Below are positions 1,135-4,985 of a DNA stretch of 13,630 bases, in pieces. The stretch is taken from assembly GCA_026394915.1 (NCBI GenBank), contig JAPLZS010000192.1, positions 1,943 to 15,572 of the forward strand. The letters run 5' to 3'. The translations under genes and the position numbers were made by a program. Under the pieces are notes generated by a model. That model was not told the origin of the DNA, ran no database searches, and saw nothing but the letters and a program-made list of their open reading frames with translations. How positions within the stretch are numbered: the stretch's first letter is position 1; every line of letters begins with the position of its first letter. This DNA comes from Candidatus Woesearchaeota archaeon (GTDB taxonomy: Archaea; Nanobdellota; Nanobdellia; Woesearchaeales; UBA12501).

Positions 1135-1169
1135 AATTTCTGCAAAACATATTACAAAAAACAACAATC

Positions 1170-1177
1170 TTTAAATA
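1170..1177 (+). promoter_or_regulatory. TATA box of the nrdR operon
   Basis: CTTTAAATACC around 1169-1179 is a strong archaeal TATA element. The predicted transcript start is about 1197-1202, leaving a leader of roughly 95-100 nt before the nrdR ATG. The two NrdR-box candidates lie at and just after this start. Confidence 0.6.
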
Positions 1178-1185
1178 CCAGCAGA

Positions 1186-1201
1186 ACACTGTATCTTGTG
1201 G
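1186..1201 (+). promoter_or_regulatory. Candidate NrdR box 1
   Basis: ACACTGTATCTTGTGG matches the published NrdR-box consensus acaCwAtATaTwGtgt at 13 of 16 positions (mismatches at 6, 10 and 16). It covers the predicted transcription start, where a bound repressor would block initiation. Confidence 0.65.
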
Positions 1202-1217
1202 TCGTCGAGACCGTCAG

Positions 1218-1233
1218 ACACAACAGGTTGTGT
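1218..1233 (+). promoter_or_regulatory. Candidate NrdR box 2
   Basis: ACACAACAGGTTGTGT has perfectly symmetrical 7-base arms and matches the NrdR-box consensus at 13 of 16 positions (mismatches at 7, 9 and 10). It starts exactly 32 bp after box 1 (16-bp gap), about three helical turns, the spacing known for tandem NrdR boxes. As RNA it could also form a short hairpin in the nrdR leader. Confidence 0.65.
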
Positions 1234-1296: not shown

Positions 1297-1773
1297 ATGA
1301 GATGCCCATATTGTTCTTCGGAAGAAAGCAAGGTGATCGACAAAAGGGAGAGCGGCCCAGGCATCACAAGAAGAAGAAGAGAGTGCCTCAAGTGCAAGAA
1401 AAGATTCACCACTTACGAAAAAATCGAGATTCTTGATCTTTCTGTGATAAAAAAGGACAGCAGGAGAGAGCCTTTCAGCAGGGACAAGCTCAAGACAGGC
1501 ATAAAGAAAGCCTGCGAGAAAAGACCTATTGAAGAGGATGCTGTAGACAGGATAGTGAGCGAGATAGAATCAGAGCTCCTCAACATGAAATCAAAGGAAG
1601 TTGACAGCAAGGAGATAGGCGAGATCCTGATGAAGAAACTGAAGAAGCTTGACAAGGTGGCTTACATAAGGTTTGCATCTGTGTATAGGGATTTCAGCGA
1701 TATAGACTCATTCAAGGAAGAGCTTGACAAGCTTGATACAGGAAAGAAGCAAAAAGAGAAAAAGAAGAAGTAG
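1297..1773 (+). CDS. nrdR: NrdR-type transcriptional repressor of ribonucleotide reductase genes
   Basis: NrdR senses the ATP/dATP state through an ATP-cone and represses ribonucleotide reductase operons in the cytoplasm. The N-terminus is a zinc ribbon with Cys3/Cys6 and Cys30/Cys33, including the hallmark R-R-R-R-E-C-L-K-C-K-K-R-F-T-T-Y-E. Residues about 47-140 form the ATP-cone (V-I-K-K-D, F-S-R-D-K-L, Y-I-R-F-A-S-V-Y-R-D-F). The length of 158 aa is typical. The C-terminal K-K-Q-K-E-K-K-K-K tail is an extra basic tail. The start is supported by GAAGGT at 1286-1291, 5 nt before ATG. It is the first gene of a module with nrdD, a redoxin and nrdG, and two candidate NrdR boxes overlap its own promoter, so autoregulation is likely. 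NrdR is mainly bacterial, so its presence in an archaeon suggests old lateral transfer (inference). Confidence 0.95.
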   Translation: MRCPYCSSEESKVIDKRESGPGITRRRRECLKCKKRFTTYEKIEILDLSVIKKDSRREPFSRDKLKTGIKKACEKRPIEEDAVDRIVSEIESELLNMKSKEVDSKEIGEILMKKLKKLDKVAYIRFASVYRDFSDIDSFKEELDKLDTGKKQKEKKKK

Positions 1774-1818: not shown

Positions 1819-1872
1819 GTGACTATGTGGCAGAGAGCAAAAACTATTAGGATAAGATGCCTTCAAGGATAA
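1819..1872 (+). other. Possible short leader ORF overlapping the nrdD start
   Basis: A GTG (1819) opens a 17-codon frame ending TAA at 1870-1872, overlapping the first five codons of nrdD. GGAGA at 1806-1810 is 8 nt before the GTG, a better ribosome site than anything directly before the nrdD ATG. It may act as a coupling ORF that delivers ribosomes to nrdD, or the site may simply be chance. Confidence 0.25.
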
Positions 1873-3912
1873 ATCTCATCAAGAAAAGGGATGGAAGAGT
1901 CGTTGAATTCACAAGAGAGAAAATAGTCAATGCTATTTTCAATGCAGCAAAAGCTGTCGGCGGACATGACAGGAGAGTTGCAGAAAGCATTGCTGAAAAA
2001 GTCACGACAATCCTTGAGTTCAAGTATGATGTCGGAGAGATACCCACAGTAGAGGAACTGCAGGACATCGTTGAGTCAGTGCTCATAAAATCAGGCCACG
2101 CAAAGACAGCGAAGGCGTACATGTTATACAGGTACCAGAGACAGAAGATAAGGGAGACAAAGAGCGTAATGATCGATTGTGTGAACACAATCGGAGATTA
2201 TCTTCACCAGGCTGACTGGAGGGTTAATGAGAACAGTAATGAGGCTTTCTCTTTCTCAGGCCTTCTTCTTTACACAGCAGGAAAAGTGATTGCTAATTAT
2301 GCCCTTAATGAGATCTACACGCCCCAGATTGCAGATGCACATAAGAAAGGATATTTTCACATACATGACCTGAACCATGGTTTCATAGGATATTGCGCAG
2401 GATGGTCGCTTAAGAACCTGTTGTTGTGGGGCTTTGGAGGAGTGAAGAACAAGGTCAATGCAAAGCCTGCAAAGCATCTTGGCGTGGTCATACACCAAAT
2501 GGTCAATTATATAGGCTGCCTGCAGATGGAATTCGCAGGAGCGCAGGCATTCTCGAGCATTGACACATTGCTTGCCCCTTTCATAAAGAAAGACAGCCTG
2601 TCTTTCAAGGAAGTCAAGCAGGAGATGCAGAAGCTGGTCTTTTCATTGAACATACCTTCAAGATGGGGAAGCCAGTATCCGTTCTCAAACCTTACATTTG
2701 ACTGGGCAGTCCCTTCTGACATGAAAGATGATTCTGCAATCGTGGGCGGAGTCGAGCAGGATTTCACATATGGAGACTGCCAGAAAGAGATGGATATGGT
2801 CAACAGGGCTTTCCTTGAGGTAATGCTCGAGGGAGATGCAAACGGAAGCATATTCTCATTCCCAATACCGACATACAACCTTACAAAAGACTTCAACTGG
2901 GGCAGCGAGAACGCAAAGAGATCCAAGGTCAATAAGGGCAATGTGCTGCCGGTTAAACATCAATCAGCTGGAGCTGATGAAAAGGCCGGGAAGCATGTGG
3001 GGGCCGGGAGACAGCACAGGAAGCATAGGTGTTGTCACATTGAACATGAACAGGATAGGCTATGAGTCAAAATCAAAAGAGGAGTTCTTCAACAAGATAA
3101 CCTATTATATGGACCTTGCAAAGGAGTCTCTTGAGACAAAAAGAAAAATAGTCAACAAGAACCTTGAGAATGGGCTTATGCCATACACAAAAAGGTATCT
3201 TGGGACATTCAAGAATCATTTCTCCACAATAGGGCTGATAGGCATGAATGAGTGCTGCCTGAATTTCATAGGCAAGAGCATAAAGACTCCTGAAGGGAAG
3301 AAATTTGCGATAGATACATTGAAATTCATGAATGAAAGATTAAGGCAATATCAGCAGGAGACAGGAAGCCTCTACAATCTTGAGGCAACGCCTGGAGAAG
3401 GGGCTTCATACAGGCTTGCGAGAGAGGACAAGAAGATGTATCCTGACATAATAACATCAGGAAAGGATGAGCCTTACCTAACAAACTCAACGCAGCTTCC
3501 TGTGGATTTCACAGATGACGCTGTCGAGGCTCTTGAGCACCAGGATGACCTGCAGACACTGTACACAGGAGGCACGATATTCCATACATTCCTTGGAGAG
3601 AAGGTAAGCAATGCAGACTCCTGCATGCAGCTTGTGAAGAAGATAGCATCGAATACAAGGATACCTTATTTCAGCATCACTCCGACATTCTCGATATGCC
3701 AGGACCATGGGTATATCAAGGGAGAGCATTTCACATGCCCTACATGCAGCAAGGAGACAGAAGTGTATTCAAGGATTGTGGGTTATTACAGGCCGATTGG
3801 CCAGTGGAACAGGGGAAAGAAAGAGGAGTTCAAGGACAGAGTTGAATATTGCGAGTCAAAGACCTTGTCCCACAAATTCGAGAAAGAGATCAAGGTGACA
3901 ACCAATCAATGA
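1857..3912 (+). pseudogene. nrdD: Anaerobic (class III) ribonucleoside-triphosphate reductase, interrupted by a deletion with frameshift
   Basis: NrdD reduces ribonucleoside triphosphates to deoxy forms with a glycyl radical under anaerobic conditions. The first frame (1857-3065) begins with an ATP-cone (residues about 5-98) and contains the first half of the catalytic barrel, with I-G-C-L-Q-M (Cys codon 2517-2519). At about 2917-2920 it leaves homology. The family continuation resumes in another frame at GAT (2920) as D-P-R-S-I-R-A-M-C-C-R-L (Cys codons 2944 and 2947), through T-G-S-I-G-V-V-T-L-N and the zinc site C-Q-D-H / C-P-T-C, to R-I-V-G-Y-Y-R-P with the radical glycine at 3781-3783, stop 3910-3912. 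Roughly 22 conserved residues expected between E-N-A-K and D-P (the T-A-K-Y-G-x-P-Y-F region) are missing. The frame offset implies a loss of 3n+2 bases (about 65-71), or separate events. Either a broken gene or an assembly error; the rest shows no decay. Confidence 0.9.
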
Positions 3913-3974: not shown

Positions 3975-4223
3975 ATGATTAACGAATACAAGGTATTCAC
4001 GACAACAGCGTGCCCGAAGTGCCCTAAAGTGAAGGATTTCATAAAGACAACAGGGCTGAAGGGCACTGAGATAAATGCCTCGACAGATGAAGGGCTGAAG
4101 ATGGCCTCGCAGTTTGCTGTATCAACTGTCCCTACAGTGATATTATTCGATGAGAGCGGAAAAGAGGCAAAAAGAGCGCATTCTGTTGATGAACTTAAGA
4201 GAATGCTTGAAGAAAATAAATGA
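3975..4223 (+). CDS. Glutaredoxin/thioredoxin-like redoxin (NrdH-like)
   Basis: An 82-aa thioredoxin-fold protein of the small cytoplasmic redoxin type. The redox motif C-P-K-C is at residues 13-16, after a short first beta strand (Y-K-V-F-T-T-T-A). The cis-proline segment T-V-P-T is at 51-54, followed by V-I-L-F-D and a C-terminal helix. The ribosome site GGAGG (3966-3970) sits 4 nt before the ATG. Its position between nrdD and nrdG suggests it passes electrons to the reductase or keeps its cysteines reduced. Redoxin-dependent class III reductases are known, in contrast to formate-dependent ones; that role here is inference from context. No reductase partner is visible in the window. Confidence 0.85.
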   Translation: MINEYKVFTTTACPKCPKVKDFIKTTGLKGTEINASTDEGLKMASQFAVSTVPTVILFDESGKEAKRAHSVDELKRMLEENK

Positions 4224-4271: not shown

Positions 4272-4985
4272 ATGGTTCTGATAAAAGGTCTCCAAAAAAC
4301 AACATTAGTGGACTATCCTGGGAAGATGGCCTGCGCAGTATTCCTTGCAGGATGCAATTTCAGGTGCCATTACTGCCACAATCCTGACCTCATAGAGAAA
4401 AGCAGATATGATAATCAGAAGACAATAACAGAGGCTGAGTTCTTCGGGTTCCTTGAGAGCAAAATGAAATGGCTTGACGGAGTTGTGATAACAGGAGGAG
4501 AGCCATGCATGAACAATGACCTTTTCAAGTTCATGAAAAAGATAAAAGAGATGGGATTTCCTGTCAAGCTTGACACAAACGGCTCATTTCCAGGCATGCT
4601 GAGATATATAATTGACAATGATCTCGTTGACTATATTGCAATGGATGTAAAGGCGCCTCTTGAAAAATATGAAAAAGTGATCTCTGCAAAAGTGAATGCA
4701 GACGCACTGAGAAGCAGCATAGATGCTGTGAAGAAGGCAGGGAAGGGGGAGAAAGGGATTGATTATGAGTTCAGGATCACTGTTGTGCCTACTCTGCACA
4801 CAAAGGATGACTTAAGGAAAATAGGGGAACTTCTCAAGGGCTCGAAAAAGATTGTGCTGCAGCAGTTCAGCAACAAAATAGTTTATGATCCTGAGTTCAG
4901 CAGCATAAAGCCATATTCAAAAGCAGAGATCAATGAGTTCAGGGAGATGCTTACGCCTTATTCCGGCGAGGTTGAGGTAAGATGA
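4272..4985 (+). CDS. nrdG: Anaerobic ribonucleoside-triphosphate reductase activating protein, radical SAM
   Basis: NrdG uses S-adenosylmethionine and a [4Fe-4S] cluster to place the glycyl radical on NrdD. The cluster motif C-N-F-R-C-H-Y-C has Cys28, Cys32 and Cys35; the SAM-binding G-G-E-P is at 75-78. The opening I-K-G-L-Q-K-T-T-L-V-D-Y-P-G-K is typical of the NrdG2-type activases (about 230 aa), matching the 237-aa length, and supports the ATG at 4272. The 48-nt gap after the redoxin has no clear ribosome-binding site, so translation may rely on coupling or on an unrecognised signal. The gene looks fully intact, which contrasts with the broken nrdD and argues that the nrdD lesion is either very recent or an artefact. 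Its end faces the convergent dCache gene across 48 bases. Confidence 0.93.
   Translation: MVLIKGLQKTTLVDYPGKMACAVFLAGCNFRCHYCHNPDLIEKSRYDNQKTITEAEFFGFLESKMKWLDGVVITGGEPCMNNDLFKFMKKIKEMGFPVKLDTNGSFPGMLRYIIDNDLVDYIAMDVKAPLEKYEKVISAKVNADALRSSIDAVKKAGKGEKGIDYEFRITVVPTLHTKDDLRKIGELLKGSKKIVLQQFSNKIVYDPEFSSIKPYSKAEINEFREMLTPYSGEVEVR

Follow-up and report, generated by a model that had tools for sequence, protein, structure and literature searches.

The two 16-bp boxes directly in front of nrdR in the window (the whole 13,630-nucleotide stretch of DNA analysed here) very probably constitute an autoregulated NrdR operator, which covers the predicted transcription start of an archaeal promoter of the TBP/TFB type and would repress it at high dATP. 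At the level of sequence, this predicted operator is established by the two sites and their spacing, by where they lie relative to the TATA box, by their conservation, and by their co-occurrence with NrdR. Binding, nucleotide dependence and a block of initiation would follow by analogy with bacterial NrdR and with archaeal repressors of similar geometry.

The genes nrdR, nrdD, grx and nrdG follow one another on one strand with nrdR at the head (Table 1), and they would be expressed as one transcript. The window NrdR matches solved NrdR chains. Its Zn-ribbon, which precedes the ATP-cone, contains two CxxC motifs, D15, R17 and RRRR (25–28); D15, R17 and four arginines are the Zn-ribbon residues named in PMC9110341. 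Position 12 is a lysine, where the Streptomyces coelicolor protein contacts DNA through R12. The named archaeal neighbours of the window NrdR are records designated as ‘Nanoarchaeota’, ‘Pacearchaeota’, ‘Woesearchaeota’ and ‘Aenigmatarchaeota’, and the operon is accordingly taken to belong to a DPANN archaeon.

Compared with ACACWATATATWGTGT, which we take to be the bacterial NrdR-box consensus, each of the two boxes agrees at 13 of 16 positions, and the conserved C4 and G13 are present in both. Self-complementarity extends to 14 of 16 positions in box 2 and to 8 of 16 in box 1, and box 1 has G at position 6, where the archaeal profile described below has A at 99%. The box centres are 32 bp apart, corresponding to three turns. 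The 16-bp spacer of the predicted operator is inside the 14–17 bp range that is well bound by bacterial NrdRs (PMC12051234), and it agrees with the rule covering both spacing classes (14–17 or 24–27 bp). Archaeal TATA boxes are described at −26/−27 and the BRE adenines at −34/−33 (PMC4158304). With the start predicted from the TATA box at about 1200, box 1 spans about −14 to +2 and box 2 about +19 to +34, and the pyrimidine–purine steps at 1197–1198 and 1199–1200 would serve as an initiator. Genes for TBP (PF00352) and TFB (PF00382) were found in the own genome, and the TATA box and both boxes are conserved in the alignment with the same-genus locus L037. The sequence-only reading had described two 13/16 sites with starts 32 bp apart, located at and just after the start predicted from the TATA box and directly before an intact nrdR; the coordinates and scores were reproduced, and the nrdR assignment is confirmed by the family model (Table 1). 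At 1105–1135, after the upstream frame and ahead of the nrdR promoter, two 13-bp arms form a perfect inverted repeat around a 5-bp loop; the repeat may be a terminator or an unrelated operator.

Table 1 Features of the nrdR promoter and operon in the window.
Feature	Coordinates	Strand	Evidence and remarks
AA dinucleotide	1166..1167	+	Sequence; BRE position, about −34/−33 with start at ~1200
TATA box TTTAAATA	1170..1177	+	Sequence; about −26/−27 with start at ~1200
NrdR box 1 ACACTGTATCTTGTGG	1186..1201	+	Profile score 14.1; over predicted start site (about 1198–1200)
Spacer, 16 bp	1202..1217	+	Sequence diverged in alignment with same-genus locus L037
NrdR box 2 ACACAACAGGTTGTGT	1218..1233	+	Profile score 18.8; near-perfect palindrome
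nrdR, 158 aa, Zn-ribbon and ATP-cone	1297..1773	+	TIGR00244, 194.2 bits (cut-off 124.65); PF22811, PF03477
nrdD, class III reductase, in two frames (1857–3065 and 2836–3912)	1857..3912	+	PF13597, positions 1–219 and 253–562
Glutaredoxin-like gene (grx)	3975..4223	+	PF00462, 31.9 bits
nrdG-type activase	4272..4985	+	TIGR02495 (NrdG2), 197.1 bits (cut-off 131.15)

Conservation of the boxes was investigated in 99 genomes of one archaeal order, including the own genome; many of them are fragmented assemblies. An NrdR-family match over the cut-off was found in 76 of the 99, and in four more a weaker match was traced to a fusion of the NrdR Zn-ribbon with NrdD. One locus per genome was read (80 loci), and 78 of these, comprising 73 stand-alone nrdR genes and five fusions, had at least 100 bp of upstream sequence. 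When the upstream regions were scanned with the bacterial consensus at a free spacing of 26–50 bp, the best pair was at 31 or 32 bp in 50 of the 78 loci, as against about 5.7 in shuffled sequences. An archaeal profile was then seeded with the relatives' own pairs at 31–32 bp (36 in number, four from fusions), so that only the consensus scan and the loci found later are independent of the profile. With a pair threshold of at least 16 within 260 bp upstream, the archaeal profile detected a pair at 51 of the 78 loci (46 of 73 stand-alone nrdR genes and 5 of 5 fusions). The centre-to-centre distance in these 51 pairs was 32 bp in 31, 31 bp in 16, 33 bp in three and 30 bp in one, and all 51 spacers were 14–17 bp long. 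Across the 80 loci (459,121 bp), pair placements scoring at least 14 numbered 86 with overlapping registers counted, and every one lay in the 260 bp preceding nrdR or a fusion gene; no such pair was found elsewhere in the 459,121 bp, and a control matrix gave none.

Seeding bias was considered as the source of the 31–32 bp spacing and rejected, as the free-spacing scans with the consensus (26–50 bp) and with the profile (17–60 bp) agree. In the latter, for which the profile was still built from 31–32 bp pairs, the best pairs scoring at least 16 were separated by 31–32 bp in 47 of 53 cases, by 30 or 33 bp in four, and by 57 and 60 bp once each, and none was a four-turn pair (40–43 bp). Six stand-alone nrdR loci obtained later (L224, L231, L239, L241, L243 and L245), which were found by motif and are outside the profile seed, all have a pair (scores of 21.6–34.9); five of them come from other orders of the same class. 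A rule that box 2 is stronger than box 1 was also considered, and it was rejected because the difference (30 of 51 loci, p = 0.13) is not significant. TATA-like 8-mers are concentrated 16–30 bp before box 1, with 37 hits against 6.4 expected in the 51 loci, and the end of box 2 is 0–154 bp from the start codon in the 51 genes. The TATA enrichment and the pair positions together indicate that placement of box 1 over the start and of box 2 just after it is common in the order. The absence of such conservation from related archaeal nrdR promoters had been named as what would refute the sequence-only reading; instead, the two sites are found again throughout the order and in loci of further orders of the class, with similar spacing and a similar placement with respect to the TATA box.

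The mechanism that we propose takes the boxes as the operator through which NrdR, the product of the gene immediately downstream, would govern nrdR-nrdD-grx-nrdG. At high dATP levels, a tetramer of NrdR carrying both ATP and dATP would occupy the two boxes, which are on one helix face and three turns apart, and the bound tetramer would bend the start region. The bent and occupied start region would keep RNA polymerase off the TBP/TFB-bound promoter, and this exclusion would shut down both the reductase and NrdR, giving feedback on nrdR. Bacterial NrdR is reported to bind, with ATP plus dATP, to two boxes about three turns apart, to kink each box by nearly 90° and to restrict polymerase access (PMC9110341, PMC12051234). 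Alternatively, NrdR bound to box 2 and the bent DNA could act as a roadblock that hinders promoter escape or early elongation, or NrdR could also activate. We consider this unlikely, while giving it some weight: box 2 is entirely downstream of the predicted start, and the operator is often near the start codon (box 2 ends within 30 bp of it in 29 of the 51 genes), but box 1 covers the predicted start behind the concentration of TATA-like sites, and archaeal repressors with start-overlapping sites are described as hindering polymerase recruitment (PMC4158304).

The nrdD gene of the window is interrupted. Specifically, the frame changes within 2836–3065 and about 34 profile positions are missing near 2925, so that the operon as assembled may not produce an active enzyme. 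The interruption is either an assembly fault or a real loss, and the former is as likely as the latter because no class I/II reductase was found in the own genome, whose assembly is 76% complete in 225 contigs. If the loss were real, the operon could be a relic, dead in this genome through its broken nrdD, in which the sites and the repressor merely persist. The two frames and the missing profile positions would fit such a relic, but it is rather improbable in view of the intact nrdR, the conservation of the boxes in the same-genus L037, the unbroken 747-aa NrdD frame of G002 from the same genus, and the equal likelihood of an assembly fault.

In 27 of the 78 genomes, no pair scoring at least 16 was found before nrdR. 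NrdD and class I/II reductase genes were searched for in 25 of these, G056 was searched for NrdD only, and G068, whose locus L066 is narrowly below the pair threshold, was searched for neither. A pair scoring at least 16 was present immediately ahead of a long class I/II reductase frame in 13 of the 27 (G006, G007, G009, G018, G022, G034, G038, G053, G063, G066, G078, G084 and G095), and G010, G037, G043 and G056 showed either one strong box or a weak pair. With the 51 genomes that have a pair at nrdR or a fusion, the 13 with a pair at a reductase bring the number to 64 of 78. A pair scoring at least 16 was absent from the loci examined in the remaining 14 of the 78 genomes; one of these 14, G060, which has both nrdR and nrdD, showed no boxes in the loci read.

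The boxes go with the presence of NrdR, with G044 and G060 as exceptions, and the following comparisons support this association. Class I/II loci have a pair in 14 of 23 NrdR-bearing genomes versus 1 of 14 NrdR-less genomes (Fisher p = 0.0016). In G008, one of the 14 positives, the pair is that of the nrdR operator. Most of the 23 entered the comparison because boxes are missing before their nrdR, and some loci in both sets are pieces that perhaps stop short of the gene's promoter. Three nrdD genes of two NrdR-less genomes (G020 and G064) have no pair. G044 (95% complete) has a strong pair scoring 38.6 at L246 4133 and a second strong single box at L178 1701, and no NrdR or Zn-ribbon was detectable in this genome; NrdR may have been lost, may be missing from the assembly, or may have been replaced by another reader of the boxes. 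For the window, an alternative reading is that another regulator or a leader RNA hairpin is at work and that the likeness to NrdR boxes is incidental. Besides G044, the inverted repeat 1214–1224/1227–1237, which consists of box 2 plus its flanks, is compatible with this; it is nevertheless very improbable, since most of box 1 precedes the predicted start and would hardly be transcribed, the three-turn spacing is that of NrdR DNA sites, as are C4 and G13 with their strong conservation, and the boxes accompany NrdR, including the fused form.

The significance of the pair was examined in the window with a symmetric profile made from 34 archaeal pairs, from which the window and its whole family were excluded. 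The pair sum was 32.9 (14.1 + 18.8), while in 1000 dinucleotide-shuffled versions of the window the top pair averaged 4.5 and reached at most 18.5. The two boxes are the top-scoring 16-mers of the window, and the third-best 16-mer scores 6.8. A first, looser scan gave three single matches with at most three mismatches against 0.33 expected. In the own genome (76% complete), a single-box pattern with two mismatches matched 32 places, a background level when compared with 28 for the reversed control, and only the nrdR operator holds two such matches 32 bp apart. Chance resemblance can be dismissed as a negligible prospect, for although the boxes agree at just 13/16 each and the single-match count of the first scan was equalled by 3 of 200 shuffles, the pair score was reached by none of the 1000 shuffles and the pair is conserved across the order.

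The NrdR Zn-ribbon is located at the N-terminus of NrdD in eight genomes, five from the first set and three found later (G054, G074, G082, G086, G090, G213, G228 and G257; loci L052, L077, L078, L079, L080, L216, L218 and L234). All eight fusions contain Zn-ribbon, ATP-cone and NRDD domains, with an additional internal LAGLIDADG domain in G213. A box pair is present upstream of each of the eight fusion genes examined (scores of 23.1 to 43.2), and no second NrdR Zn-ribbon was found in the eight genomes, five of which are at least 90% complete. There are two forms: the Zn-ribbon is joined directly to the NrdD cone, the NrdR cone being gone, or a complete NrdR is prefixed. In the one-cone fusions L077–L080 the cone is that of NrdD, with 50–57% identity to the window NrdD cone, and the two-cone fusion L052 has an NrdR cone followed by an NrdD cone. 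A protein search identified a fusion-type N-terminus at E ≤ 0.001 in 178 of 186 candidates. Among the 120 fusion proteins listed, 118 have Zn-ribbon, ATP-cone and NRDD domains, and parsing gave 60 two-cone, 55 one-cone and five unparsed proteins. The first residue of the fusion motif is D in 114 of the 115 parsed proteins among those listed, in a parse whose motif itself demands [DE].R and three arginines. Two JGI fusion records (P0078 and P0083) carry a name with both functions, showing that the fusion architecture is visible to pipelines.

S. coelicolor NrdR is described as a tetramer on its two boxes with ATP and dATP (PMC9110341), and a class III reductase was observed by cryo-EM as a dATP-bound tetramer for which two distinct nucleotide sites in the cone were suggested, as in NrdR (PMC11226230). 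By analogy, the fusion reductase may well be the repressor of its own gene, a single dATP signal stopping both enzyme and gene; a dATP-bound fusion tetramer with four Zn-ribbons would suffice to grip both boxes. With the fusions, a single protein would suffice for experiments on how one nucleotide couples allosteric control of the enzyme to repression of its gene. Upstream of the fusion gene at L077 there are two separate pairs, at −152 (31 bp) and −65 (30 bp), an arrangement like the double operator of Listeria monocytogenes nrdAB (PMC12051234). Other domain combinations were also observed. Intein or homing-endonuclease domains (PF14890, PF14528) occur in fusion NrdDs of 1,068–1,166 aa (P0002, P0012, P0020, P0030, P0048, P0094, P0097 and P0112). 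The NrdR Zn-ribbon and ATP-cone are listed in one predicted protein with AAA-type domains in P0061 and with a PHP domain (PF02811) in P0107; these two may be gene-calling joins.

NrdR is reported to be abundant in bacteria and rare in archaea (PMC12176259, PMC9110341), and the NrdR studies consulted deal with bacteria. An NrdR tree of 89 sequences and 148 columns was computed with 200 bootstrap trees; 38 of 73 eligible order loci and 32 of 62 bacterial rows were sampled, and all 16 archaeal rows and both Aminicenantes rows were kept, the latter as their own group for want of a domain label. In this tree 43 of the 86 inner branches are open; it gives no resolved placement for the archaeal NrdRs and favours neither direction of transfer. 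The 32 bacterial rows form one group in 80% of the 200 bootstrap trees; nearly all of them are Bacillota, since close relatives were what the search retrieved. The two rows of Aminicenantes, which are bacteria, fall among the unresolved archaeal rows. Any transfer would be old and would predate this genome by a long way, given that NrdR and its operators are found repeatedly throughout the order and also in further orders of the class. The sequence-only reading had held that the bacterial repressor and its operator were taken over together and now block archaeal initiation. The NrdR operator on an archaeal promoter stands, given the conserved sites and spacing, the presence of TBP and TFB, and the association with NrdR. 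The joint takeover from bacteria, as a reading of the domain-level distribution, is plausible, and the block of initiation is what we infer from the analogies given above.

A literature search, judged mostly by title, revealed no paper about an archaeal NrdR operator or an NrdR–NrdD fusion, and a search for NrdR with DPANN gave 0 papers. An NrdR-box profile from 2022 was used to scan GTDB representatives and may hold archaeal hits (PMC9110341). With NrdR in 76 of 99 genomes and a pair of bacterial design in 64 of 78, the order provides a compact test of a bending repressor against TBP/TFB initiation. The haloarchaeal nrdR-nrdB-nrdA operons likewise have an archaeal nrdR beside reductase genes, but they differ in belonging to halophiles and encoding class I enzymes, which were proposed to be transferred from bacteria, and no operator is described in the accessible part of that paper (PMC3019208). 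The archaeal repressors TrmBL1/Tgr, MDR1 and Phr have the same placement of the operator, downstream of BRE/TATA and over the start (PMC4158304), and differ from NrdR in belonging to other protein families and responding to other signals. Closest in design is the bacterial NrdR regulation of S. coelicolor nrdRJ and L. monocytogenes nrdDG, which shares the TIGR00244 Zn-ribbon/ATP-cone family, the two 16-bp boxes with a 14–17 bp spacer and three turns centre to centre, and the placement on reductase operons and nrdR itself, overlapping the start region. Unlike in these bacterial systems, the operator predicted here is on an archaeal TATA/BRE promoter served by TBP/TFB, where the boxes follow the TATA box in a narrow range.
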